A program made the position numbers and the translations under genes. The notes beneath the pieces were generated by a model. It was not told where the DNA came from and did no database searches. It was given only the letters and a program-made list of their open reading frames with translations. A stretch of 64,000 nt of DNA from Ulota crispa (Eukaryota; Streptophyta; Bryopsida; Orthotrichales; Orthotrichaceae), in the NCBI GenBank assembly GCA_963920765.1, contig OY987242.1, positions 22,530,002 through 22,594,001 of the forward strand, in the 5' to 3' direction. Every line of letters starts with the position of its first letter. Position 1 is the first letter of the stretch. Shown here piece after piece: positions 26,749 through 60,891 of the stretch.

Positions 26749-27492
26749 GTAAGTCTTCGATCTCATCTCTTCACTCGCAAGCTCTCCTGTTTTTTTTTTT
26801 TTTTTTTTTTTCGCTCTTGCCACCTTCCCGAATACTTTTGTCGCAGTTTTTCAACTCGCCGAGACGATCCGGGGTTTGGGCAGGCTACTCTGGTCCGCAG
26901 CGATGGCCAAAGAGACCACGCAGACGAGAGAGCGATTTTTGCGTTTCTCGTCGGCGTTTTAGGAGTTGCAGTAAATTGCACGGGACTGCCTTCTCGTTTC
27001 TTCCCAGTCCATATCGGCCTGAGATAGTTGTTAGGGTTTAGAGCTTGTGTAGAAAGTGGCAGTGTACGGGAAGGGCCGCAGATGTACCGAAGCGTTTCAC
27101 ACACAGTGCGGTGGGCGTTCCTCGCCTTGTTAGAGGCCGGCATTGGTACGAATGATCATCACTAAACCGCGACGGACTCGCGAAACAACAGGGCTGCAGC
27201 TTTCGTGTCGATACTGTTGTGGAGACGCTGCCACCTTGGTTTTAGCTCGAGCAAACGGGCACGTAGACGCTGTGAAACTGGACTTTAGGCAGGGGCGTTG
27301 CTGTCGGGAAATCGCCGTGAGGAAGCAAGGATTGTTCCGAGAGCTGTCTGAGCGAGAGAGCGAGCGCCGGTGTAGTGGCGCGGGGTTAGCGTGGACTCGA
27401 GGCATCGTGCGCTACTGAGTGCATTGCCGTGGATTTCGCCGCGCCGGGTCTGGAGCTGGCGAGGGTTTTGTGGAGGCAGGACGGGGTTGCAC

Positions 27493-27513
27493 GGGGGGGG
27501 GGGGGGGGGGGGG
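27493..27513. repeat. 21-nt poly-G tract (leader intron of gene A)
   Basis: Twenty-one consecutive G residues. The mirror tract in the right arm (60072-60092) is exactly 21 C residues, although such tracts normally change length quickly. Confidence 0.95.
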
Positions 27514-27663
27514 CGAGTCGCAGGGGCAGAATCCGAGTAATGACGTGGTGAGGTGATTGTTTGGTGTACAGGAGTTGAAGCTTGCTGTGCGGTGTGAGGA
27601 CTTCAAAATCTTGGAAAGGGGGGTTTATTGGCGGGACCGTTCGGAGTGGAGAGCGCGGGGAGC

Positions 27664-30600
27664 ATGATGCAGTCGCCGGTAGGGGTTGGCCCCCCGAGCG
27701 CTCAGGCGGAGGGGCAGCCGCAGCAGTGGGTGATGATGCAGCAGTCGGGCATGCAGCCGCAGCATCACGAGGAGGTGAAGACGCTGTGGGTTGGAGATCT
27801 GCAGTATTGGATGGACGAGAACTACTTGCACACGGCCTTCGTGCATACGGGAGAGGTACTTGTTGGTGCATATGCGCGTTTGTTGGGGAAATGTGAGGGC
27901 TTGCTGTAGTTTGTCAAGAAGCGTCGGTGCAGGCTCCCCTTGGCCCGAACGCCGGGGGGGACGTGCAATATTTGGGTGCGCGAGCACTCTAGCCGCGGGT
28001 TCTGGAGTGGAGGCAGCCACCCGAGTTCCCGCCGTTTGTTATGGCGGAGCGAGTGAGGGCAGATTTGGATTTGCTAGTTCGGATGGATGTCTTGGAATCG
28101 GCATGTCCATGGGAGTGGTTGCGTGCGTTGTGTGTCTGGCGAGCGGTCGGTACAGACACGAGGAGTCGAGGAGCGATATGGGGTGGGAGGAAGGTTGGGA
28201 GGGTATCGGTTTCTCCGTTTTCCGGGGGTATCGTTCCGTGTGTTTCCGAACGCATCGGAATCGACCTTCTCCGCCGAAGGTGCTAGTCTATTGCGGCAGC
28301 GGGGCGCTCGTGCGCAAGCGATTCCCATGGTGGAGGAAGTTGTTCCATCAGGGAGGAAGCTGTCGGGAACTGAGCTTGTGCGCCGAGCCTGGGAAGTTTA
28401 GGGGCCGTCGGTCGAGCAGCGTGGTATCGTGGGGAGTCGGCGACGGGAGGGGCTTCGGAAGTTTGGGGATGCTTCGAGAGGTTCCGGGGATATGTGGGAG
28501 AGGGAGTTGCGGTCTTTTGAAAAAGGCGGTCCATTGACGGGTGGTTCGGGGACGGTGTTGCAGGTGCAGTCCGTGAAGATCATTCGCAACAAGCAGACGG
28601 GCTATTCGGAGGGGTACGGGTTTGTGGAGTTTGTGTCTCACGCGGCGGCGGAGAAAATATTGCAAGCTTACAACGGCACTCAGATGCCGAACACGGAGCA
28701 GCCTTTCCGGCTGAACTGGGCTTCTTTCGGCATAGGGGAGAGGCGTCCGGAGGCAGGGCCGGAGCACTCGATCTTCGTGGGAGACCTGGCTCCCGATGTG
28801 ACGGATTACATGCTGCAGGAGACGTTTCGCACTCGGTATCCGTCCGTGAAGGGCGCGAAGGTGGTGACGGATGCCAACACGGGACGGTCGAAGGGGTACG
28901 GGTTCGTGAGGTTTGGCGATGAAATGGAGAGGAACCGGGCGATGAGTGAGATGAACGGAATTTACTGCTCGAGCAGGCCGATGCGAATCAGCGCGGCGAC
29001 TCCGAAGAAGTCTCTGGGCCCCGCGCAGCTGAACCCGAAAGGAGGTGCGCGTTTTATCGTGTCCGTGTGTCGATACGTGTGTGGGCTTGTATCGTTTGTG
29101 AACCTTTGCACAGGCCGTGAGCACGGCAGAGCTTGTGGCTGGATGCAGCTCGTGGTCAAGCCAGTTAGGAGTGACACTCAGACGCCGTGCTGCTAGTTGC
29201 AGTTGCGTGTGCAATGCGGTGGGAGGATGTTTGGTGAGGGAATGTTTGGCGGAGGGCGAGTGAGGTCGTGTTGGTGAAAGTTTGATCTGGTGGGGTAAGC
29301 TTACGAAGTCAGTAATCTGTGTCGAAGCAGGAGGGGAAGAGGCTTGCTACCAAGGGTGGCTACAAAGAGAGCCCGGCAACTGGGAAAGCAGCGTCAGTAG
29401 TGGGTGGCCCGTGATTTAGGTCAGTGTCCCTGTTTGCACGTTTTGCTTGTGCATTTCGTGCTTTCGGTTTTAGTGTTTCCTTTGTGGCGCATGAAAGATG
29501 TTGACTTCGCAAGCCGTGCGGATTCGTCGTCCGCGTGTTCCACGAGTGTGGTCCAGGGTCCTGTCCAGCAGTAGCATCGGGAGGCGGATTTCGATTGCCG
29601 ATTCGCAGTTCTTTTGTTCGCGGGTGTCATATTGCCGCGTTCTGCGTCTGGATCGTTTAGGACCGAGGAGAGGGCAGTATGGTCGATGTCGTCCTGACGG
29701 GGTGGTATCGACCGTCCACCAAACGGCCGACACGGACGAGTGGTCGAAGTAGGAATCGTAGTTGTAACGGGCCACTCCAGGTCTGACGATGGTGAATTGA
29801 GTTGAGGTGTGTCGGTCGTGCCCCTGGGGCTCGGTTGTTGTGGGTGGCAGCGCAGCAACGGACCGGCCTGGGTCTGTGGCTGTTGAAGTCGGAGGTAGAT
29901 GGTACCGTGGAGACGTGAGGTGCGGTGTCTGGGGTTTGGCGGTGCGGTCGTTGGGTCCGTTGGGTAGCTGCCTAGCGACCGAAGCGTGGGTGGCATCTGT
30001 ATGCTGATCTGATGCGTGTTCCGGGCGGAGATGTTGTCTGACGGCGGTGATGTGGGTGGTGATTGAGTGGATGCAGCTTCTCCGGTAGCCGTTGCGACGT
30101 ACACGGCGTACGGGGCCCCGGCGCCGTCTCCGCAGTCGTTCCCCACGGACAACGACCCGAACAATACAACTGTGAGTTGATATCCTGGCGTTTTTGTTTG
30201 GAGTGGGGCGTTGGCCGGGCAGTTTTTTGCGTCTTTCGTGACATGAGAGTGCGCTTTCGGTTGTTTGCCTGGTCTTGTGTGTGCGGAGAGGTTGGCGGGT
30301 TTGTAATGTCGGAGGAAACGGAGATGGGCTGGCGCGGCGGAAATGGTGGGGCTTGTGGTTGGGCCCAGCGCCGGGAGCCAGCCCGAACCGGAAATGGTGG
30401 TATGTTCGGACGAGTAATCGGTTGTGATGGTGACATGTTGTGTGGATGGATTGTGTTAGCAGATATTCGTGGGAGGGCTGGATCCGGCTGTGGGCGACGA
30501 GGACTTGAGGAACGTGTTTGGGCAGTTCGGCGAACTGGTTTACGTGAAGATTCCTGCCGGGAAAGGCTGCGGTTTCGTGCAGTTCACTCACAGGTGCGTG

Positions 30601-33165
30601 CCTGGTTGTAGTTGCGTCTAGCCTGGTGTTGGGAAGGGCCTCTTTCCTGCAGAGGTATGTCGAAGGACCCGGTTTGACGTAGCGTTGGGTGCGTAGTGGT
30701 CTGGTTTTCTGCGACTGGGCAGCCGGCTCGACACCAAGCGTCATGGGAGTGGAATGAATACGCGCGTGATATTGGTAGGGTCCGGTTTAGGAACGGGGGC
30801 AGGAGTGGTCACAGCTGGCGTGTCGAAGGGGATGCTCTGGGCAGAGGAGCGGGTCCGCGTTGGGCCACGTGGGAGTGGTTTGCGGGAGTGAGTGGTGGAT
30901 GGCTTTTTCACGCGACCGTGGATGGAGGCTTACCGTTGTGCTCACGTGCGGTGGTGGTGTTTCAGAGCGTGTGCGGAGGAAGCCCTGCAACGGCTCCACC
31001 AGACGGTGATCGGAACGCAAGCGGTGCGGTTGTCGTGGGGCAGGAGCCCCGGCAACAAGCAGACAGCCGATGTAAGTGGAAGTCTTGAGGTGTATGGCTG
31101 AGTGCGGGGTGTGGAGTGTTGGAATATGCTGCAGGTTGACAGTGGGTTGTGGGTAGGGCGTGTGGAGTAATGGGTGTCGGTTTGTGTGGGAGCAGGCCGG
31201 TTGGGGGCAGCAGCAGGATCCCAATCAATGGAACGCAGCAGGCTATTACCAGGGGTACGCACAGGGGTACGACCAGTACGGATATCCGACGCAGCCCCCG
31301 CAGGACCCCGCATATGCTCAATACGGAAGCTACCCCGGTTATGGGAATTATCCTCAGCAGGTATGCTAGTGTTCTTATTCCCGGTTTCTCTCAGTTGTGT
31401 TTGTTTGGTGTCGCGGTTGGTGGGGGTCGGGGGAATCGTAGAGCGTGCCACCGCAACGCGTAGAGTGGGTCCGGTGTTGATGAATGCATAGACGGTCGGC
31501 GGTGGAGTGGAAGGTAGGGTTGCCTGGGTCCGTGCGGGGACTGTGAGTGCTGTTCAGTTGAGGGGTGTCGGGCCGTGCCGGTCTAGCGACGGCGTTGAGT
31601 TTGGGTGAGTACTGCTACGACCGAGTGGGTGGAATGCAGGGGCTCGTGGAGTTTTTCGACAGAATGTAGGTTGTGAAGTAGGGGAGAGAGTAGCGGTTTA
31701 GGTCCGTTTTCGGGGTCTCCGTGAAGGCGCAACGTGCACAATGTAGATTCCAAGCGCCGAGGATTGGGTGTAGTTTTTGCACTGGCGTTCCAGAGTGGCA
31801 GGGGAGTGGATGTTGTTGGGGTGGTTGTGCAAAGCAGCAGATGGTTTGTGGTGAGTAGGAGCGGGTTTGTTTGATGGTACAGTAGGTGTGTGGTGAGTGG
31901 TGGTGTTGTGATCCTGGTAGCGCTGCGCGTGAATGATTTTCTGAGGCTGGCTCTTCTGTGGTCGTATATTACAGTGAAGAGTTGAGCAACTGTGAGAAGT
32001 AATTCTCGGTGGAGCGTTTTTGGCGTGTGTGATCTATCTCAGTGCAGAATAGTTGTCGAAACTTGGAATGCCTTAAAAACCCCCACTTGTAATGATGGCA
32101 AGGCAATAGATGTTCAACTTTTTCAAGTCATAAGACGCCGACCTTGAAGCTGGTGTTGCAAGGCTTGCGGGGAACTGTGTATCTATGCTAGATTAGTCTG
32201 GTTGGACATGATTAGACGTATTGGGCTAGCTTTGAATGTCTCTATGGACTCCCCCCTCAGCAATCAAAAGTGTGAAGTGATTAGTCGACAAGGGAGGGAT
32301 CCGGTCCTCTTCTTTTCTGTTGTATTGGCGTACGAGGCACGCGGGTGGCGTTTCCTGTCATTTTGTCTGTGTGCTACTATTGGGTTGAGTTGAGTTGAGT
32401 TGTGAGGGTTAGGGTTGTTTTGCAAAAGTTGTTTCACGGTGGAAGGCTTGGATGATCGAGTCGCGTTCTGCTTGTCGCACATGGTAATTTGATGCAAGGA
32501 AGCTCTGTGCATTGTTATCCAGCGGGTTACGGTGTGGACGGTTTGATGTTGTGGATGCTGTTAGTTTTGTGGAGGATGACTAGTTCCAAGGGCTCTCGGA
32601 GGGAGAGGGAGGGTGTTGTAGGTGAATTATGAGTGGTAGGAGGTCGTGGCAATGGCCAAGGCTGGGGAAGAGAGCTTCAAGTGCGGGAGCTGTGTGGACT
32701 CCTCTTTATTTGTATATTCTGGGTATCGCATATATGTGCACATCACTATCGTTAGGGTGACGCACAGGCTTCAGTTGCTGTAAGCGCCATCCCTTCGGCG
32801 GAGCAGAAGGAGGAGGAGATCTTTGACCCGCTGGCCCCTCCCGATGTGGACAAGTAAGTTCGCCCCAGAGTTGTTTTCGTGTCTTGTGGTGACCCTGTCG
32901 AGGTCGGAGCCGGTTGCCGTATGGTGTGCTCGGCAGCGTCTTTTTTCTTTCTTTGTGCGGGTGTTCGTGCTGCTGTATCTGTGTCGCCTCAAACCGTGTA
33001 TGGGGCACTAGTAAGGTTACGAGGGCCGGGAGGTGGATGTCCGACTCACGCGGGGCTGGCGGGTGCAGGTTGAACGCGACGTACATGGCGGTTCACACAG
33101 CTCCTTTGCTGGGTCGCCATTTGTGGCTGAAGACGTCCGACCACGGTCAAGCGCCGATTAGCTAG
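27664..33165 (+). CDS. RBP45/47: RBP45/RBP47-type triple-RRM RNA-binding protein, copy A
   Basis: Eight coding exons (27664-27855, 28564-29044, 30077-30171, 30463-30593, 30966-31071, 31196-31360, 32768-32853, 33069-33165) give 450 residues, stop TAG; all introns GT-AG and all phases agree. After a Gln-rich N terminus come three RRMs. RRM1 has RNP2 LWVGDL at 41-46 and RNP1 EGYGFVEF at 80-87. RRM2 has IFVGDL at 134-139 and KGYGFVRF at 174-181. RRM3 has IFVGGL at 257-262 and KGCGFVQF at 290-297. A Gly/Tyr/Gln-rich tail (336-390) and a conserved end with APPDVDK and LNATYMAVH follow. Plant RBP45/47 proteins bind U-rich or poly(A) RNA, act in pre-mRNA maturation and enter stress granules. The ATG at 27664 follows an in-frame TGA near 27595. 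An identical protein is encoded by gene B. Confidence 0.93.
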
Positions 33166-34007
33166 GTTTACACGTGGTCTGCTTGTGCCGGGTTTACAAC
33201 CGATCACGGGGCTCTGATTGCGCAGCGCTGTCCGGTTGTAGACCGGACGCGCCCGCCGAGATGAGATGAGATGGAGGCAGAGAGGATCCGTGTTCTGGTT
33301 TTTCTGTTTTTTTTTGCTTCTTCTTTTGTTTCTTCAAAGTCATAATAGGGAGGATATCTAGAGTTGAGAGACCGCACATGCCTGTCGTTTCTGCTTCGTC
33401 GTGGCGTTGGTGGGTATCTGGTAGAGTGGGGTGGTATGCGTTGCTTGCCGGTGCGTGGCCTGCAGTCTTGTTGGATTCCATGATTGTTGAATGTCTTTGT
33501 GGTCGTGGCAAGCTGGCGTCTCAAGGAGTCGCTTATAGTGCGTGGTCCATTTGTCCGGTGGAACTTCCTCAGGCATGTATGTCGTGCGCATGGTTTTCCT
33601 GCTTTGGCGGAGCGGTCCGGATCACCGGTATAATGCATTCCGAGGATGAAGTTTGGATTACCGCATCCTTGAATCAACCGGAGTGACTTTGGAATTTTAG
33701 TGTCGGTAATGTTGAATCTGAAACCTCATGCACTAAATGTACATCCTACCGATGTTTCCCACACTAACTGCCACCACGGCATGGCAGCCAGACGTTGGGA
33801 GTTTTGTCACGTCACTATGTCCAGCGGCAGGTTTGACCAGGGATGGATAAAATTCTACTACTGTAGGATAGCAAGGTGTGCGGTGTCTTGTGGGATCCTT
33901 ACAGAGGGCCCCTCCTCTCCCTTTGCATCCAAAGCATCCGTAGAGGGCACGCTTATTGTGATGCTGCCTCTGATGGAGGCATTGCACACTTACATCATCA
34001 CACTTAC
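33166..34007 (+). other. 3' region of RBP45/47 gene A and inner end of the arm
   Basis: No further coding exon is supported. Open frames here on both strands are by-products of GC-rich sequence. The 3' UTR probably lies in the first few hundred bases. Confidence 0.5.
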
Positions 34008-34318
34008 AGCATCTCCACCGGTTCAGACTCGCTTAAAGTTTTCCATCTGGTTTGGCGAGTACTGAAGGCTCCCAATCTCCGGCCATGCTCTTTGAAAAGG
34101 TGGCCCAACACTCCAAGACACTCCATAAATAAGCAGTTGACCACTTATCTAGGGAAGTATAGGATAAAGTTCACTAAAGTTAGGGTGAATAGTGCATTAA
34201 TAGTGGTTGAAGAGTGGCTTGCTAGACTCGTCAAATAAGAGAGTTTGAGTGTGGCATGAGAGGGACTTGGCTGTTTTTCATCCACTTTGAGCGAGCCAGA
34301 GTCATTGGTGGAGATGCT
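34008..34318. mobile_element. MITE with AGCATCTCCACC terminal repeats
   Basis: It starts AGCATCTCCACCGGTTCAGA and ends with the complement GGTGGAGATGCT; the inner parts GACTCGCT and AGCGAGCC are also inverted. This end type is common among short plant MITEs. It sits 13 bp beyond the inner end of the left arm. No clear target duplication was found. Confidence 0.55.
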
Positions 34319-36109
34319 CTTTCATCATCTCTTGCAGAATGTTACCTAAGCCCTGTGCTCCTCAACTGTAATGGCTTCCTCATTTTCAATGCCCAACAAT
34401 GTTGAACATGCCCCTATGTAGGCTGTGGGGCTTCTGACTTGAGTTGCAACTTTTCAGCTTTTAATAGGTCCCCTTCACGGTTTGTAGTGAGCATTGTACA
34501 GGCACTAGCATTGTTAGGTATTGTCCATGCACAATCCCACTCCATAGGCAAGTGTGCCCTTGTGATTTGTTGTAACGTAGGTACATGTCTTGAAGGTTTC
34601 AGGGTTACAAAAGAACTTCAAGCCTCATCGTGAAGGTTCCCAACATTCTCTCGGTGAAGTCTCATTTATCCGGGTGTTGCATAGCATGTTATAGGAGATG
34701 TTCTTAGGGCCAATTTAGACCAAGATGTCTAGCGGTTTTGGACAAAAGCTCGTGTCTTGTAGTTTGTCAAGTAGGCTTTGGAGGTAATTTGCCATGTTAG
34801 CATGGATTTTGTGTGTCCATTGAATGGGTTCATACGAAGCACTAGATATCTAGTACTTTAGGTTTTTGCACGTTGATTTGATAAATTCTAGAAACACCAT
34901 GTATGAAGTGAGAATTGAATTATAATGATGTAGTAATTGATTGTATAAATCTTTATTTCGGTAATGGACATTGTTCTTAACCTCTTTCTTTTGTCATTGA
35001 TGTAAGAAATTGCTCTAGAAGTAAGATAGGAACATTGATAACCGTCAAATTAAGAGCTTTGAACATGACTATTAATAAATATCTAGCAAATTATAAGATC
35101 GTATTAACAACAGAAAAATTATAAGTTTGCACTTTTGAATGTATTATTTGGATATTGTGAGAATAAGTTGTGAATTTTCAAGGAGCAAACTGCCATTACA
35201 CCCATAACCAACACTGAGGTTTCATGTTCACATGTTGTACATACTTGTCATTACATCTATTTACTTCCACAAATTTTTCAAAATTTCAGAGGTGATGGTT
35301 ATGTGGACCCTGGGTGGTCCTACTTTATCCTAACAATGAATTGATACAACTCTAAAGACATACTAATAATATTTTATATGCTTTCTAAATATATTTCAAA
35401 AACACCAAATTTTTTTTCAAAAGTATTTCTTTAGAAAACTGAAGTAATCAATAATTTTGTAAGATTTTATAAAAATATATTTTTTAAATTGAATCAATCA
35501 AAAAATTAGAACATGTTACCTCACATATTATTGAGAATCTCCAACAAATTGTATACTTGAAAGTTTGAATGTAGAATCTTATTATTCCTTCCATATTAAA
35601 AGTTTGTGAGTATTTTGTATCATATTTTTGCACTTTTTTTACATGAGTGCCTAATTTAGATTATATATATATTATTTTCAACTTTTTGGTCACATAGTCA
35701 TTTTGAAGAAGTCATCATTTTACTTCTACTTTTTCTTTCCACAATAACGTTAAATATCAATTTCAATCTTTGAAATTTTCTAAGTTCAAATAGTTTGAGC
35801 AACATAGTTCAATAGAAGCATTTGTAAACTATAATAACACCACTTTACACAAACATTAAATTTCAAAAGCATATGAAGTAGCAGTTGTGCAAAGATTCCA
35901 TGTAGTTTGGTAGTAATTACATGAAGTGGTAGTTTTTATTGCCTTCTATATAATTAAATGAAAGTAAAGTACAGCACATGCATGTGAAGTGCAATTTAGT
36001 TAAACTAACTTCATGACTTTTTTAAAATTGACATATGAATTTGTAGTGTTGGTTGCATTAATCTCTAGTTATCTTTCTTTAATTCCACATTAAGTATAGT
36101 TTGGACATT
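34319..36109. other. AT-rich spacer, no gene seen
   Basis: The section to about 34850 is less AT-rich and may be old TE sequence; I could not assign it to a family. From 34850 on the sequence is strongly AT-rich without coding pattern. Confidence 0.45.
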
Positions 36110-36269
36110 CACTAGTAGAAAAACTCCATCCAAAGCAACAAAAAATCAACAATTTCTTGTTGCTTTGGGCACTTGCACACGCTAATTGACTAATTTAACA
36201 TAATTATGTAGAAAACTACTTACATTCTGTTGATTTGGACACCATTGACTAAATCAACAAAAAAAAATT

Positions 36270-36990
36270 TGGAATCTTTGAGAACCTATGAAGATCTTTT
36301 GGAATCTTTGAGAATCTTCTTAGATTCTATAGAACTTGTGAGAATCTTTGAGAATATTTGAAAAATATGAGAATTTTTTTAGAATCTTTTAGGATTCTTT
36401 AAGGATCTTTTTGGAATCTTTTTGGAATCTATGAAGACCTTTTGGAATCTTTCATAATCTTTGTGGATTCTTTTAGAATCTTTTGGAAAATTTTGAGAGA
36501 ATTGAGAAATCTTTGAGAATCTTTGAGAATCTTTTAGGATTCTTCAAGAATCTTTTTGGAATATTTTAGAATCTTTGAGAATCTTTGGGAATTTGTTCCA
36601 AGTTTTTAAGGAATCTTTGAAAATCTTTGAGAATCTTTGAGAATTTTGGAGAATCTTTGAAACCTTTGAGAATCTTTTGAAGTTTTAAGGAATCTTTTAG
36701 AATCTTTTTAGAATCTATGAGAATCTTTTTGGAATCTTTGAAAATCTTCTTTGGAATCTTGAGAATCTTTTTGAATTTTTAATTATGAAATTTGAAAAAT
36801 TACTTCAAAATCTTCATTAAAGTAGAGTCTCTTAAACTCAATTAGAGTTGTTTTAGGATCTTTTTGAAATTCATTAAAATACTTTAAATATTTTTTCATA
36901 AAAAACTATTAGAGTAGTTTGGGTTGTTTTTGAAATCTTTCTAGAATCTTTTTGGATTGCATGAAAATGTTTTGAAGTTTTGAAAAATAA
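36270..36990. repeat. Degenerate GAGAATCTTT minisatellite
   Basis: The 10-bp unit GAGAATCTTT is repeated many times with substitutions and small indels, densest at 36270-36770. It is flanked on both sides (36140-36260 and 37115-37230) by inverted AACAAAAAATCAACAA and TTGTTGATTTGGACA motifs, as if it lies inside a TE. Confidence 0.8.
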
Positions 36991-37199
36991 AAGAATTTTT
37001 CAAAAAAATCAGAATCTTTTAAAATTTTGAGTGTGGCTTTTTTCTCCATTTTTCACAATTTGTTATGATTTAACATTAGTAGCTTTTAATTAAAGTCTTC
37101 TAAAAACATGACCAATACAACAAAAAATCAACAATTTTTGTTGATCTGGACACTTTTGGACACAACAAAACAACAGAAAATCCATGGTTTTATGTTGAT

Positions 37200-38600
37200 T
37201 TGGACAATTTTGAACACAACTTAATTAAGTCAACAAAATTTTGTATAAAATGTACTGTGCAAGGTGCAGTAGACCATGCTTGTTGCTTTTGGGATAACAA
37301 TGTAGGGTGGCGTAGTAGTATTCATGATTATAATTTGTTTAGTAAATCCCTTATAGGTAAATATTATAATGGAGGGAAACTCAATCTTTATGCCTTGCTT
37401 GATGACGTTGCTTGATGATGTTGCTTATCAACCTTGTCCTTGGATGTTGACACCTTACCTCAGTAACAAAGATGGTTTTAGTAGGGAATAAGCCCATTAG
37501 AATATTATCCAATCAAGTTATTGGATGTGTGTGGAGCATGCATTTAGTATATTGAAGTCACAATGGAGAATATTGTTAAAACAAATGGATTGTCCATTAA
37601 AGCATTTACCAGTTCATGTTACGATGTCGTGATGTAAATCATAGCATATAGTAAAAATAAATAAAGTCATTAGATTATAGTATGTGTAAAATGTACTCTT
37701 TTCCGTTCATTTGCAGTTTTATCCTTGATTAGTAACGTTATCCCGGATAAGGCTTTGATGAGACAACAACCTTTTAGAAGTGTTAGTTTACTGGAGTTAT
37801 TAGAGTTTATTTTAGTGAAAGGATTCATAAAGCAATGGTCTAGAAAGACTTTTACTTTGGAGTTTATTTTAGGTAAAATATTTCATAGACCAATGGTAGA
37901 AGAGGACCTTTTACTTTATATCATCTCTCCATAGTATATATAGGAAACACAATTGAAAGAGGGTGTTCTTTGAAACTAAATTTTATTCTATACTTTGAAA
38001 CATATTTCATTTTGTTTGTTCTCTTAAGCTTTTGATTTCTTATCATCTTGAAGTTTTTATTTTGAGAGGATTTTGTGCATACTATCTCTCACTTGATTCT
38101 TTGATACAGTTGCAACCAGATACCATGCGTGTTCTCAAAGCGTGCTCTTCTCTACCTGACAACGACGTGCTTAATTTTGCAAAATCTAACTAGAATACAT
38201 AATGATGCATTTCATGTGCCATTGAATTTATGAGGCTAAATGTGAGCTACAACAAGATTTGTCAACATCTTCAGAAACTGCTGCTGCATCAACTACATTG
38301 TTGGAAGCTCAAAATGTTACTATAACGGTTGATGATTTTTACAACCATGCTTCATATGAAGTTGAAGCTTTGGGATGGAACTCAACTCCATCATATGCTA
38401 AAGAGCAAATGTGCATGCATCGAGATGCTATAGCTAAGTCATTATTTAGTAGAAAGCAACTTAGGGATATAGCAAGGGATGTAATATTCACTTTAGATTA
38501 TTGTCTTCAAAGAGTGACTAAGGTTCCCATATTGTTTACAAGTTTTTCTTGTTCAAAAACTAACGTAAATAAAGCATTAGTTCAATTAAAAATGAATTAA
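37200..38600 (+). pseudogene. PIF/Harbinger (HARBI1-like, DDE_Tnp_4) transposase relic
   Basis: The conceptual product carries VQGAVDHACCFWDNNVGW, SIHDYNLF, LLDDVA..YQPCPWMLTPY and VEHAFSILKSQWRILLKQMD in the order of the Harbinger nuclease, with candidate D, D and E catalytic residues (VDH, LDD, VEH). A 13-bp tandem duplication of GATGACGTTGCTT near 37401-37425 shifts the frame just after the second Asp. Other stops follow (for example in SREXAH near 37490). The frame at 38259-38600 (LGWNSTPSYAKEQ, HRDAIAKSLF) may be its C-terminal part. The element is inactive. Confidence 0.65.
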
Positions 38601-41465: not shown

Positions 41466-41617
41466 AAACGCAATATTTAATCAATTAGAAAAAATGAAAT
41501 TGTGGGACTTTTGGATTTTTTGTTTTATAAAGAGAATTCAATGAATTCATTTTATAAAACATAAAATCCAAAAGTCCCAAAATGTCACTTTCTCCTAATT
41601 TAATAAATATTGCGTTG
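41466..41617. mobile_element. Small palindromic MITE
   Basis: A near-perfect foldback of about 150 bp with arms of about 70 bp, centred near 41541 (GAATTCAATGAATTC). Arms run from CAATATTTAATCAATTAG inward to GGGACTTTTGGATTTT. It is related to the sequence in CDSP32 intron 2 (9991-10236). Confidence 0.7.
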
Positions 41618-42959: not shown

Positions 42960-43088
42960 GGTAGTTTGCGTAGAATCTTAAATATTGTTGGCTTCATATG
43001 CTTTTGCAACACAAATCTTTTTTACATTGAGCACGTTAAGAGCAATCTTTTTTGTTTTGCATAATAGAATAAAGGCCATTTGGAACCA

Positions 43089-47790: not shown

Positions 47791-47798
47791 ATCAGGCA

Positions 47799-48640: not shown

Positions 48641-48762
48641 ACACAAAGAAATGTAAAGAAAAAAATGAATGTCAATATTTAAAATTTATTACGTTTTTTT
48701 TGTTTTAAATGTTGTATAAAATTTGATCTTTAAAAAATATTGACCTGAGCCAATTTTGCAGG

Positions 48763-51262
48763 GATATTCAAAATGCTTAAGGGATTTTTATGGAATGCCG
48801 TTAGCTCTAACTCTTCATGACAGTAACATGATTCCAATTACTATGATGGTTTTGAAGAGAATGCAATATTTTGACCGTGAAATCTAAGAAGGTATTGTTG
48901 ATAGTAATCTCACATTTATGAATAGTGGTCAAAGAAATATATTTGATGCTATTATGAGTTGCCAAGAGAAAAGATAGCCAAAATCTCATGGGGTAATTTT
49001 TATCTAAGGTCCTAGAGGTACCGGAAAAACTTTTTTATACAATACACTAACTCGTACACTTCTTGCAAAAAATAGGAGCCAAGGGAGGATTATATTGGCA
49101 ATTGCATCATCGGGAATTGCTACTACTTTCTGAAGGAAGGATTGCTCATAGTTGTTTCTTAGAGGGTAACTTATTGCATTTTAGAAACAACATGTGGCAA
49201 AATATAGATAGCCTTTTATTCATTTTGGATAAAATTTATAACAAATTTACAAATAAAATAAAGGTCATTCAAAGTCAAAAATCATTTATAAGTAAAATAG
49301 GTAGCCTCCAAATGCAAGTCATTAGTATTTTGTACATATAGTTTAGTGTGTCATATATTAGATCCTCTAAATTGAATTTACTATAGCATGTGTGTAGAGC
49401 TAGGTGCATAGTTGGGTTAGACGCATTGTTTCTATTTGAGCAATTAAATGCCCAATTTCTTCAAAATATAACAGGTAGCTTCAAGGCTTTAGGGAAAAAA
49501 AGGGTTTTATACTTATTTTTCTAAACCTTTTCCTTTCAACTATTTTTTCAATTCTTAGGTTTTTCTTTATAAAGAATATAGCCTAGAATAAATTACACTA
49601 AATGAAAAGTACTAGTAATGGTAGAGTTCCATCAAATAAGTCATTTTGCCAATTATAAGTAATCATTGGTATCCTTTAATTCTAGCCTACAAGATAAATA
49701 GCCCCCCTCCAAAAAAGCCCCATACCGCACGGGGTACTAAAAAAATAGATAGAGTGCCCTCCCCCCAAGAGTTGTTTTAAAATCCTATTTTTATAAACAA
49801 TGATTCATCATGCATGTTCCCTTTCACTCCAATTTGACCATGCAAAACTCATCCATGAAGCTTCACTTATAGTGTGGGATGAGGTACCAATGATGCACAA
49901 ACATGTATTTGAAAGTGTAGATAGAGTATGTAGAGATATCATGGATGCAGAGAATCCAATACTTGACCATGTATTATTTGGTGGTAAGATTTTTGTTTTT
50001 GGTGGAGTCTTTTGCCAAGTGCTCCCAGTGGTGAAGCGAGGTGGTAGAGGAGATATTGTATCAACATCACTATCAAGATCTACTATGTGGCATTATATCA
50101 AGGTTATGCAATTGACTATCAATATGCAAGTTGCACTGCTTACATCTGAAGGGCGTGATGCAAATGAGCAAGAATTGTTTGCAAGTTATTTATTGGATTT
50201 GGGAGAAGGACAATTACCTCTTCCATATTTGGGTTAGTGCCACAATTATCAAATTCATGTTAATTTGACCTATTAGTGAAAGTATTGAAGTATCCAAAAA
50301 TTGGGTTTTTGTGAAAAACCAAGTTTATATACCATTGGTTAAGTTGTACAATGATATAGATATGTTGAAAATTATTTACCAAGTTAGTTACTATACTATT
50401 ATCTTATATAATATCATTTTAAAAATAGAATAAATATGTATTTATGAATTTGAAAAAATATTTGATATTTAAATTGCACTTGAGTTTGGAATCAACTTAT
50501 TTGTGATCCACATTGCCAATAGCTGGATGTTATTGCACTTCTAGTTTCAATTTGTATACCAATAGACAAATGCATGAACACAACTATCAGAAAGATAGTT
50601 TGTGAATTGTATCTAGATTTTTTGAACGACTTCAATGATGCAAAGTATATGATGGAATGTGCAATACTAGCCCCTACAAAGAAGGTGGTGGATCAACTCA
50701 ATACTTTTGCTTGTGCATTATTACCAAGGATTCATGTTGAACACCTTTCAATAGATTCAGTTTCCATAGAAGACGGACCTAATGCATCTTTATATCTAGT
50801 TGAATTTTCAAATTCATTGACACCAGGAGGATTACCACCTCACAAGTTGATTCTCAAAGTTGGACTACCAATCATTTTATTGAGAAATCTAAACTCTAGT
50901 GAAGGACTACATAATGGAACTCAATTAATATACCGTGGCATCCAAGGACGTGTGATTGATGCTAAAATTACTATTGGTGACCATAAAGGAAAACAAATTT
51001 TGATTCCAAGGATATCATTGATTTCTATAGAATCTGATTGCCCATTTTCATATTGATGACTCCAATTTTGCATAGCTCTAGCATTTGCTATGACTATAAA
51101 TAAAGCTCAAGGTCAATCACTCAACTTTGTTGATATTCACCTTTAAGAATCATGTTTTACACATGGTCAATTGTATGTGACCATGTCCAAAGTGAGTGAG
51201 AAGAAAAGTTTGAAGTGCATATTACCACTCACAAAATGCCCAAATGGTGAATTTTGATTTGT
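48763..51262 (+). pseudogene. Helitron PIF1-type helicase relic
   Basis: Walker A GPRGTGKT lies at 49008-49031 and ASSGIATT follows. Walker B is seen as LIVWDEVPMMHKHVFE near 49870-49915, then FGGVFCQVLPVVKRGGRGD. Later motifs are CAILAPTKKVVDQLN (near 50665), LPPHKLILKVGLPIILLRNL, and ALAFAMTINKAQGQSLNFVD with HGQLYVTMSKV near 51080-51195. Two AT-rich stretches, about 49190-49800 and 50240-50540, interrupt it and look like insertions or introns. Stops and frameshifts are frequent. The motif order matches PIF1-family helicases of Helitrons, not the cellular PIF1. Confidence 0.82.
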
Positions 51263-52289
51263 GACTAGAAATGTTGTCTACAAAGAAGTATTACAGATTT
51301 GAGAAGGTGAGATTTGTTCTTCCAACAAATTAAAGGTTTGCCATAACGGGTATATTTTTAACATTCCATCTGATCATTTGAATGGGTAATTTGATCAAAT
51401 GACCAAGATATTTTAGGTGCACACCTTATTCTATAGTAGTGTTGGTTTAATCTAATTTTTCTTTACAAGTGAGATTGAATTGCTAGGTCCTCTCCAATTG
51501 TGCATCAAATGGAATGCTTGCCCAATCAAGAGTGTTCTTTCTTTTCAAGTAGTTGTTACCATGGATAGCTTTGATTGCTAAATTCTAAGAAGATTTTGTT
51601 TGATAATAACTAATCCAATTGATCATAATGTGAAAATAATGGAATTTTGACATGTCTAAGCTTTATAATAACAAGATCAGCAAAGGGTATTATGTGTCTC
51701 AAATGATCAACAAGATTGGACAGAAGAGAATTTGTATTTGGCCTTTCTAGAACAACATAGAGGCCCAATTTGAATCCTTTTGGTTTCTTTTTGAGGTAAT
51801 CTCTCTACCATTTCTTTGGTTTTAAGAAGTTTTTGCAAATGGGCTCTAGAATCTTAGCTCAGAGTTTCATTTGCAATGGAGTTCAATTAAATCACAAGAT
51901 ATTAACCAAGAATTAGTGGCATAGCTAGTTGCAATTATGTAGGAGTGTTAAAACTTTTTTGTGATGTTGATGGAACAGGTTTTACAAACTAGCTCAAAGG
52001 AAGAGGCAAGCTCCTTTTACATAGTAGGTTTTCAAATCCTTCCCATCAAGTTTCAAGATAGTTGAATTTGTTGCATTCTATTTCTTAGAAGTGTTGTTCT
52101 ACTACCTAACTTGCCATGAAGTTGAATTTAAGGTGATTTGGTTAGAAAGCATTTTGAACTTGATAGTTTTAGAAACAACCACCACATCTCAAATTTTGTG
52201 TTTTGAAGAATGCAACGCATCTGTTCAATATTTGAGTTCTAAAAACTCTATTGAGTTTGGATTTGCAAGGAGGTACATTCCTATGAAGG
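51263..52289. other. Old TE sequence, not assigned
   Basis: Moderately AT-rich and without a clear family. A frame at 52091-52270 faintly resembles a copia RNase H region but is too weak to call. Confidence 0.35.
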
Positions 52290-52510
52290 CATGTAATCAA
52301 GGTCAAAATTTCCTATTCAAATGGCCAAACCAATGGGCAATTCATAGGCTAGATTTGGTGATTTAGATATTGAATATGAAGCTCAAGGAATTACTTGATC
52401 TTCTCAAAAAGTCAATGTATGGGGTCGTAATTGGAGATAATTTAACAATTAGTTCCATCAGTGTGGTTTGCCACATGCACACATTCTCATTGTGAAAGCC
52501 AATTGATTCT
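52290..52510 (+). pseudogene. Second, short Helitron Rep fragment
   Basis: The DNA is clearly similar to 47225-47400: KLKELLDLLKK followed by CGLPHAHIL. Unlike the main relic it keeps both His codons of the HUH motif (CAT and CAC within 52474-52482). No other Helitron domain follows, so it is a fragment from a related copy. Confidence 0.65.
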
Positions 52511-53156
52511 TTTTGTGACAATAGAAATGGATGAAGAGTAACAATTTGTGTTGATTAGATGGTTACAATTTGTATGCATTTAGATTTGCTTAAATACAAC
52601 CATCAATTTTATCATAGTTGTGTTGATGTGGCATTGCAAAAGGTTTTGTTCTAGTATACTATATCTAGACAAAAAAGCAAAAGTGTGTTGACCATAGACA
52701 AGTAGACAAATACACCAAGTCCAACAAGGGGCAGTTCACAATAGATTCCATATCCCAAGTCTCATTGAAATCTGAGAATCTGATTGGAGTAACACAAAAA
52801 TTGGGACTTGGCATTTCAAACTACATTCCTAGTCTCATAGCCCAATTGCTTACATTGCAACACTTCTTGCAAGTTTTGACACCAAAGGTGGGACTTGACT
52901 CAAGGTTTGGGTTTTTAGAATTGCTTTCGCTTCTAATAACCCAACTAAGTTGGGATTTGGGATCTGGTGTTGCAATGGGACTTACAAAGATGGACATACA
53001 CATACTATGAACTGGCTGTAAGTGTGCAATGCCTCCATCAAAGGCAGCATCACAATAAGCATGCCCTCTACAAATGCGCTTAGATAAAAAGGGAGAGGAG
53101 GGACCCTCTATAAGGATCCCACAAGACACCGCACACCTTGCTATCCTATAGTACTA

Positions 53157-53727
53157 CTCCCTTTGTCCCAATATAAAGCTCCATATTAGGCATAGTTCTT
53201 ATCCCACTAGAAAGCTCCATTTTGCTACTTTCAATTGTTGAGAAAATATTTGTCATGTCCAATGATCTCATGGGGGCAAGGTAAGCAACTAGAGAGCATT
53301 CCTCTCCTAACAAGCTTGGCCTTGCCCATATGAGGTACCATTCTTGCTACTAATCTTTAAATCACCAATAATGAGGAGCTAGCAACACGTACAAATATGG
53401 TACACGGAATTTGGGTGTCCAAATGGCAACATCAAAACTAGAGATTCTGAACACATTTGGTAGATGGTATATTCATTCTACAACACAAGTGTCATTAGTA
53501 CAAAGACTAAAATAATGAGGAACCGACAGCCTTCACAAACCATGCACAAATATGATACTTTTTGCGTGGAATTTGGATGTCTAAACAACCTGAAAACTTG
53601 AGATTTTGCAGATATTTGGTAGGTGGTAAATTGATTCTATAATGATTTTGTCACTAGCAAATGACTACAATTACAGTTAATCCCTCATGGAGAAGTTTTT
53701 TGGACCTTTGTATTCGGACAGAGGGAG
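53157..53727. mobile_element. Stowaway-like (Tc1/mariner) MITE present only in the right arm
   Basis: The ends CTCCCTTTGTCCCAATA and the complement of CGGACAGAGGGAG are the Stowaway consensus type, flanked by TA at 53155-53156 and 53728-53729. The left arm shows the empty site with a single TA (near 33857). The interior holds a tandem duplication of about 150 bp (about 53370-53510 and 53512-53665, each with GAATTTGG.TGTC and ATTTGGTAG). Confidence 0.88.
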
Positions 53728-54419
53728 TAGAATTTTATCCATCCCTGGTCAAACCTGCCGCTGGACATAGTGACATGACAAAACTCCCAACGTCTGGCTG
53801 CCATGCCGTGGTGGCAGTTAGTGTGGGAAACATCGGTAGGATGTACATTTAGTGCATGAGGTTTCAGATTCAACATTACCGACACTAAAATTCCAAAGTC
53901 ACTCCGGTTGATTCAAGGATGCGGTAATCCAAACTTCATCCTCGGAATGCATTATACCGGTGATCCGGACCGCTCCGCCAAAGCAGGAAAACCATGCGCA
54001 CGACATACATGCCTGAGGAAGTTCCACCGGACAAATGGACCACGCACTATAAGCGACTCCTTGAGACGCCAGCTTGCCACGACCACAAAGACATTCAACA
54101 ATCATGGAATCCAACAAGACTGCAGGCCACGCACCGGCAAGCAACGCATACCACCCCACTCTACCAGATACCCACCAACGCCACGACGAAGCAGAAACGA
54201 CAGGCATGTGCGGTCTCTCAACTCTAGATATCCTCCCTATTATGACTTTGAAGAAACAAAAGAAGAAGCAAAAAAAAACAGAAAAACCAGAACACGGATC
54301 CTCTCTGCCTCCATCTCATCTCATCTCGGCGGGCGCGTCCGGTCTACAACCGGACAGCGCTGCGCAATCAGAGCCCCGTGATCGGTTGTAAACCCGGCAC
54401 AAGCAGACCACGTGTAAAC

Positions 54420-57400
54420 CTAGCTAATCGGCGCTTGACCGTGGTCGGACGTCTTCAGCCACAAATGGCGACCCAGCAAAGGAGCTGTGTGAACCGCCAT
54501 GTACGTCGCGTTCAACCTGCACCCGCCAGCCCCGCGTGAGTCGGACATCCACCTCCCGGCCCTCGTAACCTTACTAGTGCCCCATACACGGTTTGAGGCG
54601 ACACAGATACAGCAGCACGAACACCCGCACAAAGAAAGAAAAAAGACGCTGCCGAGCACACCATACGGCAACCGGCTCCGACCTCGACAGGGTCACCACA
54701 AGACACGAAAACAACTCTGGGGCGAACTTACTTGTCCACATCGGGAGGGGCCAGCGGGTCAAAGATCTCCTCCTCCTTCTGCTCCGCCGAAGGGATGGCG
54801 CTTACAGCAACTGAAGCCTGTGCGTCACCCTAACGATAGTGATGTGCACATATATGCGATACCCAGAATATACAAATAAAGAGGAGTCCACACAGCTCCC
54901 GCACTTGAAGCTCTCTTCCCCAGCCTTGGCCATTGCCACGACCTCCTACCACTCATAATTCACCTACAACACCCTCCCTCTCCCTCCGAGAGCCCTTGGA
55001 ACTAGTCATCCTCCACAAAACTAACAGCATCCACAACATCAAACCGTCCACACCGTAACCCGCTGGATAACAATGCACAGAGCTTCCTTGCATCAAATTA
55101 CCATGTGCGACAAGCAGAACGCGACTCGATCATCCAAGCCTTCCACCGTGAAACAACTTTTGCAAAACAACCCTAACCCTCACAACTCAACTCAACTCAA
55201 CCCAATAGTAGCACACAGACAAAATGACAGGAAACGCCACCCGCGTGCCTCGTACGCCAATACAACAGAAAAGAAGAGGACCGGATCCCTCCCTTGTCGA
55301 CTAATCACTTCACACTTTTGATTGCTGAGGGGGGAGTCCATAGAGACATTCAAAGCTAGCCCAATACGTCTAATCATGTCCAACCAGACTAATCTAGCAT
55401 AGATACACAGTTCCCCGCAAGCCTTGCAACACCAGCTTCAAGGTCGGCGTCTTATGACTTGAAAAAGTTGAACATCTATTGCCTTGCCATCATTACAAGT
55501 GGGGGTTTTTAAGGCATTCCAAGTTTCGACAACTATTCTGCACTGAGATAGATCACACACGCCAAAAACGCTCCACCGAGAATTACTTCTCACAGTTGCT
55601 CAACTCTTCACTGTAATATACGACCACAGAAGAGCCAGCCTCAGAAAATCATTCACGCGCAGCGCTACCAGGATCACAACACCACCACTCACCACACACC
55701 TACTGTACCATCAAACAAACCCGCTCCTACTCACCACAAACCATCTGCTGCTTTGCACAACCACCCCAACAACATCCACTCCCCTGCCACTCTGGAACGC
55801 CAGTGCAAAAACTACACCCAATCCTCGGCGCTTGGAATCTACATTGTGCACGTTGCGCCTTCACGGAGACCCCGAAAACGGACCTAAACCGCTACTCTCT
55901 CCCCTACTTCACAACCTACATTCTGTCGAAAAACTCCACGAGCCCCTGCATTCCACCCACTCGGTCGTAGCAGTACTCACCCAAACTCAACGCCGTCGCT
56001 AGACCGGCACGGCCCGACACCCCTCAACTGAACAGCACTCACAGTCCCCGCACGGACCCAGGCAACCCTACCTTCCACTCCACCGCCGACCGTCTATGCA
56101 TTCATCAACACCGGACCCACTCTACGCGTTGCGGTGGCACGCTCTACGATTCCCCCGACCCCCACCAACCGCGACACCAAACAAACACAACTGAGAGAAA
56201 CCGGGAATAAGAACACTAGCATACCTGCTGAGGATAATTCCCATAACCGGGGTAGCTTCCGTATTGAGCATATGCGGGGTCCTGCGGGGGCTGCGTCGGA
56301 TATCCGTACTGGTCGTACCCCTGTGCGTACCCCTGGTAATAGCCTGCTGCGTTCCATTGATTGGGATCCTGCTGCTGCCCCCAACCGGCCTGCTCCCACA
56401 CAAACCGACACCCATTACTCCACACGCCCTACCCACAACCCACTGTCAACCTGCAGCATATTCCAACACTCCACACCCCGCACTCAGCCATACACCTCAA
56501 GACTTCCACTTACATCGGCTGTCTGCTTGTTGCCGGGGCTCCTGCCCCACGACAACCGCACCGCTTGCGTTCCGATCACCGTCTGGTGGAGCCGTTGCAG
56601 GGCTTCCTCCGCACACGCTCTGAAACACCACCACCGCACGTGAGCACAACGGTAAGCCTCCATCCACGGTCGCGTGAAAAAGCCATCCACCACTCACTCC
56701 CGCAAACCACTCCCACGTGGCCCAACGCGGACCCGCTCCTCTGCCCAGAGCATCCCCTTCGACACGCCAGCTGTGACCACTCCTGCCCCCGTTCCTAAAC
56801 CGGACCCTACCAATATCACGCGCGTATTCATTCCACTCCCATGACGCTTGGTGTCGAGCCGGCTGCCCAGTCGCAGAAAACCAGACCACTACGCACCCAA
56901 CGCTACGTCAAACCGGGTCCTTCGACATACCTCTGCAGGAAAGAGGCCCTTCCCAACACCAGGCTAGACGCAACTACAACCAGGCACGCACCTGTGAGTG
57001 AACTGCACGAAACCGCAGCCTTTCCCGGCAGGAATCTTCACGTAAACCAGTTCGCCGAACTGCCCAAACACGTTCCTCAAGTCCTCGTCGCCCACAGCCG
57101 GATCCAGCCCTCCCACGAATATCTGCTAACACAATCCATCCACACAACATGTCACCATCACAACCGATTACTCGTCCGAACATACCACCATTTCCGGTTC
57201 GGGCTGGCTCCCGGCGCTGGGCCCAACCACAAGCCCCACCATTTCCGCCGCGCCAGCCCATCTCCGTTTCCTCCGACATTACAAACCCGCCAACCTCTCC
57301 GCACACACAAGACCAGGCAAACAACCGAAAGCGCACTCTCATGTCACGAAAGACGCAAAAAACTGCCCGGCCAACGCCCCACTCCAAACAAAAACGCCAG

Positions 57401-59921
57401 GATATCAACTCACAGTTGTATTGTTCGGGTCGTTGTCCGTGGGGAACGACTGCGGAGACGGCGCCGGGGCCCCGTACGCCGTGTACGTCGCAACGGCTAC
57501 CGGAGAAGCTGCATCCACTCAATCACCACCCACATCACCGCCGTCAGACAACATCTCCGCCCGGAACACGCATCAGATCAGCATACAGATGCCACCCACG
57601 CTTCGGTCGCTAGGCAGCTACCCAACGGACCCAACGACCGCACCGCCAAACCCCAGACACCGCACCTCACGTCTCCACGGTACCATCTACCTCCGACTTC
57701 AACAGCCACAGACCCAGGCCGGTCCGTTGCTGCGCTGCCACCCACAACAACCGAGCCCCAGGGGCACGACCGACACACCTCAACTCAATTCACCATCGTC
57801 AGACCTGGAGTGGCCCGTTACAACTACGATTCCTACTTCGACCACTCGTCCGTGTCGGCCGTTTGGTGGACGGTCGATACCACCCCGTCAGGACGACATC
57901 GACCATACTGCCCTCTCCTCGGTCCTAAACGATCCAGACGCAGAACGCGGCAATATGACACCCGCGAACAAAAGAACTGCGAATCGGCAATCGAAATCCG
58001 CCTCCCGATGCTACTGCTGGACAGGACCCTGGACCACACTCGTGGAACACGCGGACGACGAATCCGCACGGCTTGCGAAGTCAACATCTTTCATGCGCCA
58101 CAAAGGAAACACTAAAACCGAAAGCACGAAATGCACAAGCAAAACGTGCAAACAGGGACACTGACCTAAATCACGGGCCACCCACTACTGACGCTGCTTT
58201 CCCAGTTGCCGGGCTCTCTTTGTAGCCACCCTTGGTAGCAAGCCTCTTCCCCTCCTGCTTCGACACAGATTACTGACTTCGTAAGCTTACCCCACCAGAT
58301 CAAACTTTCACCAACACGACCTCACTCGCCCTCCGCCAAACATTCCCTCACCAAACATCCTCCCACCGCATTGCACACGCAACTGCAACTAGCAGCACGG
58401 CGTCTGAGTGTCACTCCTAACTGGCTTGACCACGAGCTGCATCCAGCCACAAGCTCTGCCGTGCTCACGGCCTGTGCAAAGGTTCACAAACGATACAAGC
58501 CCACACACGTATCGACACACGGACACGATAAAACGCGCACCTCCTTTCGGGTTCAGCTGCGCGGGGCCCAGAGACTTCTTCGGAGTCGCCGCGCTGATTC
58601 GCATCGGCCTGCTCGAGCAGTAAATTCCGTTCATCTCACTCATCGCCCGGTTCCTCTCCATTTCATCGCCAAACCTCACGAACCCGTACCCCTTCGACCG
58701 TCCCGTGTTGGCATCCGTCACCACCTTCGCGCCCTTCACGGACGGATACCGAGTGCGAAACGTCTCCTGCAGCATGTAATCCGTCACATCGGGAGCCAGG
58801 TCTCCCACGAAGATCGAGTGCTCCGGCCCTGCCTCCGGACGCCTCTCCCCTATGCCGAAAGAAGCCCAGTTCAGCCGGAAAGGCTGCTCCGTGTTCGGCA
58901 TCTGAGTGCCGTTGTAAGCTTGCAATATTTTCTCCGCCGCCGCGTGAGACACAAACTCCACAAACCCGTACCCCTCCGAATAGCCCGTCTGCTTGTTGCG
59001 AATGATCTTCACGGACTGCACCTGCAACACCGTCCCCGAACCACCCGTCAATGGACCGCCTTTTTCAAAAGACCGCAACTCCCTCTCCCACATATCCCCG
59101 GAACCTCTCGAAGCATCCCCAAACTTCCGAAGCCCCTCCCGTCGCCGACTCCCCACGATACCACGCTGCTCGACCGACGGCCCCTAAACTTCCCAGGCTC
59201 GGCGCACAAGCTCAGTTCCCGACAGCTTCCTCCCTGATGGAACAACTTCCTCCACCATGGGAATCGCTTGCGCACGAGCGCCCCGCTGCCGCAATAGACT
59301 AGCACCTTCGGCGGAGAAGGTCGATTCCGATGCGTTCGGAAACACACGGAACGATACCCCCGGAAAACGGAGAAACCGATACCCTCCCAACCTTCCTCCC
59401 ACCCCATATCGCTCCTCGACTCCTCGTGTCTGTACCGACCGCTCGCCAGACACACAACGCACGCAACCACTCCCATGGACATGCCGATTCCAAGACATCC
59501 ATCCGAACTAGCAAATCCAAATCTGCCCTCACTCGCTCCGCCATAACAAACGGCGGGAACTCGGGTGGCTGCCTCCACTCCAGAACCCGCGGCTAGAGTG
59601 CTCGCGCACCCAAATATTGCACGTCCCCCCCGGCGTTCGGGCCAAGGGGAGCCTGCACCGACGCTTCTTGACAAACTACAGCAAGCCCTCACATTTCCCC
59701 AACAAACGCGCATATGCACCAACAAGTACCTCTCCCGTATGCACGAAGGCCGTGTGCAAGTAGTTCTCGTCCATCCAATACTGCAGATCTCCAACCCACA
59801 GCGTCTTCACCTCCTCGTGATGCTGCGGCTGCATGCCCGACTGCTGCATCATCACCCACTGCTGCGGCTGCCCCTCCGCCTGAGCGCTCGGGGGGCCAAC
59901 CCCTACCGGCGACTGCATCAT
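54420..59921 (-). CDS. RBP45/47: RBP45/RBP47-type triple-RRM RNA-binding protein, copy B
   Basis: Eight coding exons on the minus strand (59921-59730, 59021-58541, 57508-57414, 57122-56992, 56619-56514, 56389-56225, 54817-54732, 54516-54420) encode the same 450 residues as copy A, with the same splice sites and identical introns as far as I can see. The three RRMs, Gly/Tyr/Gln-rich tail and C terminus are therefore as in copy A. The two genes point towards each other, tails about 21 kb apart. The leader exon and promoter (60900-61120) differ substantially from those of copy A, so the two could be expressed differently while making one protein. Nothing is broken. Confidence 0.92.
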
Positions 59922-60071
59922 GCTCCCCGCGCTCTCCACTCCGAACGGTCCCGCCAATAAACCCCCCTTTCCAAGATTTTGAAGTCCTCACACCGCACAG
60001 CAAGCTTCAACTCCTGTACACCAAACAATCACCTCACCACGTCATTACTCGGATTCTGCCCCTGCGACTCG

Positions 60072-60092
60072 CCCCCCCCCCCCCCCCCCCCC
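60072..60092. repeat. 21-nt poly-C tract (leader intron of gene B)
   Basis: This is the exact mirror of the 21-nt poly-G in gene A; the equal length is notable for such an unstable tract. Confidence 0.95.
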
Positions 60093-60891
60093 GTGCAACC
60101 CCGTCCTGCCTCCACAAAACCCTCGCCAGCTCCAGACCCGGCGCGGCGAAATCCACGGCAATGCACTCAGTAGCGCACGATGCCTCGAGTCCACGCTAAC
60201 CCCGCGCCACTACACCGGCGCTCGCTCTCTCGCTCAGACAGCTCTCGGAACAATCCTTGCTTCCTCACGGCGATTTCCCGACAGCAACGCCCCTGCCTAA
60301 AGTCCAGTTTCACAGCGTCTACGTGCCCGTTTGCTCGAGCTAAAACCAAGGTGGCAGCGTCTCCACAACAGTATCGACACGAAAGCTGCAGCCCTGTTGT
60401 TTCGCGAGTCCGTCGCGGTTAAGGAATAAATTATGCGCGTCTGCAAAGACTGGAAACCAGCGACCACGTTGAAACTTTTGCTGCGTCGTCAAGAATTCGT
60501 GGCGCGTCACCGCCAAACCTTTCCGAACCAACATCAAAATGAGCAATGCCGAATGCCAATAAACTGAATATCGCCCGCCGCATTACACTCTTGTCAAAAA
60601 CTGGTCGCCTCCATATCTACCTCCACTATCTAAAAGAGCCCCTAAACCCTAACAGCAATTCTGGAATAATCTGCACGGGGAAGTGAAGTGAAGGCAATCG
60701 TCTAAACGTACGGCGAGGTGCGAATCCATGACGAGAAACGCATAATCTGCTCCATCACCTTCGACAAGGAGCTCCGCAGCTCGTTCAAGGCGTGGACCCG
60801 CGAGGCGAGCTGAAAGCGGCGACTGTAGGAGCGGAGGCATAGTAAGAAAAAAAAAATCGGGGTTGAGGAAGAAGAGAGGGAGATTACTGAC

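Follow-up and report, generated by a model that had tools for sequence, protein, structure and literature searches.

In the moss Physcomitrella patens, nearly identical or highly similar genes are arranged in tandem arrays (PMC3045890 and PMC3729371, both relaying earlier papers), and one of these two papers suggests concerted evolution via gene conversion. Palindromes with arm-to-arm gene conversion are described for the W chromosome of willow (PMC7023750), and conversion biased towards guanine and cytosine (GC) for palindromes of the primate X chromosome (PMC8981503). Ectopic conversion between inverted duplicates is a known process, and the present work is of interest because this process seems to recur in a moss. 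Here, we analyzed a stretch of 64,000 nucleotides from the moss Ulota crispa (assembly GCA_963920765.1, contig OY987242.1, positions 22,530,002 to 22,594,001 of the forward strand), called the window below, which contains an inverted pair of RBP45/47-like genes. The pair very probably goes back to an old inverted duplication that was followed by divergence, by the insertion of a miniature inverted-repeat transposable element (MITE) and by a recent conversion of the whole gene between the arms.

The Ulota pair resembles the P. patens arrays, as far as these are described in the accessible text, in that neighbouring moss paralogues are near-identical and conversion is proposed, but its genes are inverted, lie 19.9 kb apart around a transposon-filled spacer and have tract edges that can be set against diverged homologous flanks. 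With the willow palindromes it shares a plant host, inverted arms that appear older than their identity and a case for conversion drawn partly from transposon ages (PMC7023750). Willow, however, has two palindromes on a sex chromosome, with 20-kb stretches conserved among four arms, whereas the monoicous Ulota has one gene and two arms. Mammalian sex-chromosome palindromes likewise have arms more than 99% identical and a GC content above that of their surroundings (56.6% against 32% in Ulota), but they are large and sex-chromosomal, and in Ulota a GC bias is inseparable from gene content (PMC8981503). A location on a sex chromosome, which is typical of large palindromes, does not seem to apply here, judging from the available parts of the genome note, in which the species is monoicous and the chromosome table has no named sex chromosome. 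The initial annotation had proposed a plant counterpart of palindrome conversion. This holds as a fair working analogy, but it is not new as such given the willow W palindromes (PMC7023750); moreover, Ulota is described as monoicous, and its unit comprises just one gene.

To compare the arms, we aligned them base by base on the assembled sequence, pairing position x with position 87585-x. The homogenised core of the left arm (27165-33809, + strand) and the reverse complement of that of the right arm (53776-60420, - strand) showed 0 mismatches in 6,645 positions and 0 insertions or deletions (indels), which gives a 95% upper limit of 0.045% for the divergence of the core. The exact mirror symmetry claimed in the initial annotation, with introns matching along with exons, is thereby confirmed. 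The homogenised DNA comprises introns and untranslated DNA as well as exons, and it includes a run of G that is 21 bases long in both arms. Because 4.1 kb of introns are unchanged too, selection at the protein level cannot explain the identity of the arms. The single mismatch past the core is at position 33810 (left C, right T when read along the gene), after which the identity holds to 33859; this inner edge of the left arm (33810-33859, + strand, 1 difference in 50 bp) ends at the TA site where the left arm lacks the MITE. Like the arms of a palindrome, the two copies are inverted around a spacer and at least 99% identical.

Both arms carry an intact gene with 8 coding exons that encodes the same protein of 454 amino acids. 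The coding span of the left gene is 27664-33165 (+ strand), with exons at 27664-27855, 28564-29044, 30077-30171, 30463-30593, 30966-31071, 31196-31360, 32756-32853 and 33069-33165, and the same coding sequence is present on the right at 54420-59921 (- strand). The exon model is a prediction built by hand from GT/AG sites and the reading frame. The protein has three RRM domains (Pfam) and NAM8 is its top match among solved structures, features in line with proteins of the RBP45/47-NAM8 type; the name RBP45/47 follows the initial annotation and is not a search result. A third gene of the RBP45/47 kind, which could serve as an outgroup to tell donor from recipient, was absent among the 65 scored candidates of a protein search, in which matches other than the pair were 27-47% identical. 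The introns in 27856-33068 have a GC content of 55.7% and a strongly G-rich sense strand (GGG 116 times, CCC 18 times), and their observed/expected ratio of CpG is 1.02 versus 0.26 in the spacer, where GC is 32%.

Outside the identical core, both sides of the arms continue into homologous sequences that have diverged. The outer flanks, on the upstream side of the gene (26560-27164, + strand, and 60421-61090, - strand), are 64.5% identical over 555 aligned columns in a MAFFT alignment with indels, and their best block of 239 bp (26564-26802 versus 60844-61082) reaches 73%. The inner flanks (33860-33994, + strand, and 53017-53156, - strand) are 91% identical when 33856-33994 is aligned with 53017-53156, with 12 substitutions and 1 gap. 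The lone mismatch at 33810 shares its C-left/T-right direction with most of the inner-flank substitutions. These values agree with the divergence of about 30% upstream and about 10% in the inner 140 bp that the initial annotation had reported, but its placing of the flanks immediately outside the core needs correction. At the outer boundary, the MAFFT alignment has ~105 gap columns within ~16 aligned bases of the edge, reflecting ~100 bp of DNA in the right outer flank without a left counterpart, and at the right arm the MITE intervenes before the inner flank. Core and inner flank differ sharply in divergence (0/6645 versus 12/139 differences, Fisher p = 3e-21); hence, similar divergence in both, which would have removed the argument for conversion, was not observed.

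We then considered the origin of the flank homology. In whole-genome searches, 26560-26860 matched both loci of the pair plus a single 40-bp stretch on C10, and 33850-34000 matched both loci alone, although the absence of a match is no proof of rarity. Because the matches are confined to the two loci apart from the 40 bp on C10, the searched flanks are pair-specific and look like remnants of an old duplication and not like dispersed repeats. Sensitive searches for homology past the unit, in parts of the spacer sides and the outer sides, gave weak matches at chance level and one 90-bp match of transposon type. With nothing more homologous further out, the duplicated unit therefore appears to comprise ~26560-33994 and 53017-61090. 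The pair shows the pattern of ectopic (interlocus) gene conversion, in which a long identical tract stops sharply within colinear sequence that has diverged. Since the second site held a copy already, the event would have been a replacement, that is, a conversion.

The inner edge of the identical tract coincides with the MITE, an element of 569 bp with CTCCCTCTGTCC-type ends and TA flanks (53157-53725, - strand). It is present only in the right arm, which it separates from its inner flank, and the left arm has the empty site. The identity of the arms reaches the MITE, and differences start at most 3 bp past its far side. Among 40 scored of 2,756 candidates, at least 39 other near-full-length matches are 87-90% identical to the MITE. 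It differs from the majority of 27 relatives, drawn from 41 other listed matches, at 42 of 558 positions (7.5%), the highest value among the 28 aligned copies; the closest of the 27 is 8.6% away, and 18 differences are private to the MITE within the 28-copy set. Had the MITE inserted after the homogenisation, the identical tract would be expected to run beyond it, barring a coincident tract end. Because the MITE is 7.5% away from the majority of its relatives and the core differs by at most 0.045%, the order duplication, divergence, MITE insertion and homogenisation fits best. Hence, the sequence comparison indicates that the MITE is probably older than the homogenisation.

We propose an ancient inverted duplication of a unit of ~7.4 kb with one complete RBP45/47-type gene, extending from its upstream side to the 3' flank. 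The two resulting copies would have drifted apart while transposons filled the spacer and the MITE entered the right arm on the 3' side of the gene. Later homologous recombination between the arms, an ectopic gene conversion whose simplest form would be the repair of a break in one arm with the other arm as template, would have copied ~6.65 kb with the whole coding body and its introns from one arm into the other. The conversion tract would have stopped at the MITE on the inside and near a length difference on the outside. In this scheme, we infer conversion as the process, its timing after the MITE insertion and one long event over many. The initial annotation had concluded that the duplication is old and the core recently homogenised, and the pair-specific, colinear and diverged flanks, the identical introns and the boundary MITE that probably predates the homogenisation all support this.

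An assembly artefact, which the initial annotation regarded as the main alternative, would mean that the consensus of one arm was used at both loci and that the true arms are more different. The 0/6,645 differences, the G-run of exactly 21 bases in both arms and the position of the only mismatch at the very edge of the arm, 50 bp from its end, are also expected of a collapsed repeat; moreover, the contig N50 is merely 0.6 Mb and the HiFi reads average ~9.8 kb, as computed from figures of the genome note (cbUloCris4.1; 21.28 Gb of PacBio HiFi data in 2.18 million reads). However, according to the available text of that note, the sample was a haploid gametophyte of a monoicous moss, coverage is stated as 117-fold and the quality value as 60.9, and the reads were assembled with hifiasm with no polishing step mentioned. 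There is no N in 144 kb (the window and 80 kb of neighbouring sequence), a rough estimate that assumes a fixed read length and 77-fold coverage predicts ~16 reads across each arm with anchors of 500 bp, and other inverted pairs were assembled with 1-20% differences retained. A collapse would still require arms much more alike than their flanks. An artefact is therefore weakened as an explanation and unlikely, with the identical G-run and the edge mismatch still fitting it. We consider as very unlikely a single recent inverted duplication of 6.65 kb with no earlier copy at the second site: identical introns would be expected from it too, on general knowledge, but both flanks are colinear, homologous, diverged in register and pair-specific where searched. 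The intact state of both genes would also agree with an old duplication held alike by purifying selection over the whole transcription unit, but this is hardly credible when 4.1 kb of introns and the G-run are unchanged and the identity ends within a few bp at the MITE.

In addition to the G-run and the edge mismatch, several points weigh against an old duplication followed by recent conversion. The comparison covers a single species, Ulota crispa. The 27 relatives of the MITE belong to the matches most similar to this copy, and the MITE may carry old differences inherited from its source. Read along the gene, 8 of the 12 substitutions between the inner flanks have C in the left copy and T in the right one and are hence strand-biased; because of them, the inner flank may have mutated fast, and its 9% divergence may overstate the age of the duplication. 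As the outer and inner flanks have diverged unequally (35% versus 9%), more than one past event is likely.

The GC content is 56.6% in the arms, 32% in the spacer and 54.5-55% in the unconverted outer flanks. Within the RRM family, GC at third codon positions and surrounding GC were higher at one locus of each of three inverted pairs than at 10 other loci (p = 0.03 and 0.05). GC-biased conversion in the arms is suggestive only, because GC is also high in the unconverted flanks.

We next asked whether other inverted gene pairs in the genome have similar tracts. All 5 further inverted pairs that were aligned, which had been selected for equal scores or as query matches and not randomly, contain long identical or near-identical tracts, and in 4 of these pairs the tracts adjoin homologous sequence that has diverged. 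The copies of an inverted RRM pair on C8, which lie 31-33 kb apart, share a homologous unit of 5.5 kb with an identical run close to either end (1,290 and 937 bp) and a middle that is 79-99% alike per window. In an inverted RRM pair on C2 (64 kb apart), a 565-bp identical run lies near one end of a 2-kb unit and the rest is mostly 84-98% identical. Inverted LHC pairs on C6 (33 kb apart) and C7 (98 kb apart), both picked for equal scores, reach 98-100% identity in windows of 100 columns over ~1.5 and ~1.4 kb, with a homologous flank of 62-87% on one side and no clear homology on the other. An inverted P450 pair 11 kb apart (C8:12649801-12652300 and 12662301-12664800) is identical across all 2,488 comparable bp, with no flank seen. 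As for direct pairs, the copies of an RRM pair on C6 agree in 72% of 901 columns, but those of an LHC pair on C1, which lie ~126 kb apart, show no difference for at least 1,675 bp. Because of the latter, orientation is no absolute rule. These alignments suggest that conversion also acts elsewhere in this moss. A further inverted equal-scoring RRM pair (C5:7.13/7.15 Mb) has a third equal-scoring match on the small contig C75 (C75:1587-2345), which may be either an additional copy or a leftover contig.

To survey orientation, we counted same-family neighbours at most 150 kb apart and called them equal-scoring when their profile scores were within 1% over the same profile interval; scored candidates were 150/228 for RRM, 92/213 for P450 and 124/1009 for kinases. 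For LHC, RRM and P450, the families explored first, with same-strand matches at most 3.5 kb apart joined and the C4 LHC cluster left out, equal-scoring pairs were 13 inverted to 2 direct and the others 19 to 38 (Fisher p = 0.0003). Joining masks one close direct LHC pair in the C4 cluster, and pairs inside a cluster are not independent. With close matches separated, the ratios were 13:2 versus 19:41 without the cluster and 25:11 versus 19:41 with it. The equal-scoring counts alone gave binomial p = 0.007 (13:2) and 0.03 (25:11). The 13 inverted pairs include the RBP45/47 pair, without which the counts are 12:2, or 24:11 with the cluster. The contrast is inflated, because the direct pairs that do not score equally include some that probably represent widely spaced exons of a single gene. 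Kinases had been predicted in advance to favour inverted pairs; their equal-scoring pairs were 7:4 versus 13:17 for the others (p = 0.31; 13:19 and p = 0.29 with close matches separated), so that the prediction was right in direction but not confirmed on its own. The four families pooled gave 20:6 versus 32:60 without the C4 cluster and 32:15 versus 32:60 with it. Homogenisation in inverted pairs only is ruled out by the identical direct LHC pair on C1, 4 equal-scoring direct kinase pairs and the mixed C4 LHC cluster.

It is possible, but at this stage a tentative idea, that this monoicous, haploid-sequenced moss has a standing process of conversion between inverted paralogues ~10-100 kb apart, active genome-wide, that keeps gene bodies identical while upstream regions drift; it would be the equivalent, away from sex chromosomes, of palindrome conversion. 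Inverted pairs might be favoured since near-identical direct copies tend to lose one copy by recombination. The open-licence literature that we searched did not yield any moss for which inverted gene pairs are reported to be homogenised across the genome, and gene conversion is not mentioned in the available sections of a paper on the Sphagnum genome (PMC9946827).

The remaining sequence of the window contains several other elements. The AT-rich spacer (33995-53016) carries transposon remains, including fragments of PIF1 helicase and 2B domains within 49797-51053 (+ strand; PIF1 helicase fragments at 49797-50234 and 50523-51053), which we take to be Helitron-like. The spacer filled with transposable elements that the initial annotation had described is thus present, but the interval between the ends of the two arms (33860-53725) measures 19.9 kb and not 19 kb. 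A separate, self-complementary element of 1.56 kb at 17862-19425 matches its own reverse complement at 97%; because one of its ends resembles a hairpin element at 63171-63476, it is probably a fold-back transposon. An exon of a DUF1223-family gene is at 20991-21512 (- strand).

Overall, our analysis suggests that the same protein is now encoded under two upstream regions that have diverged. For a natural conversion tract of 6.6 kb that covers a whole gene, both ends would be fixed to a few bases, and the end at the MITE orders the events. The identity of moss paralogues need not date their duplication. If the genome-wide recurrence is true, mosses would provide a simple haploid system for measuring the rate at which paralogues overwrite each other and the effect of orientation on it, and a way to study how duplicates retain a common protein as their control regions grow apart.

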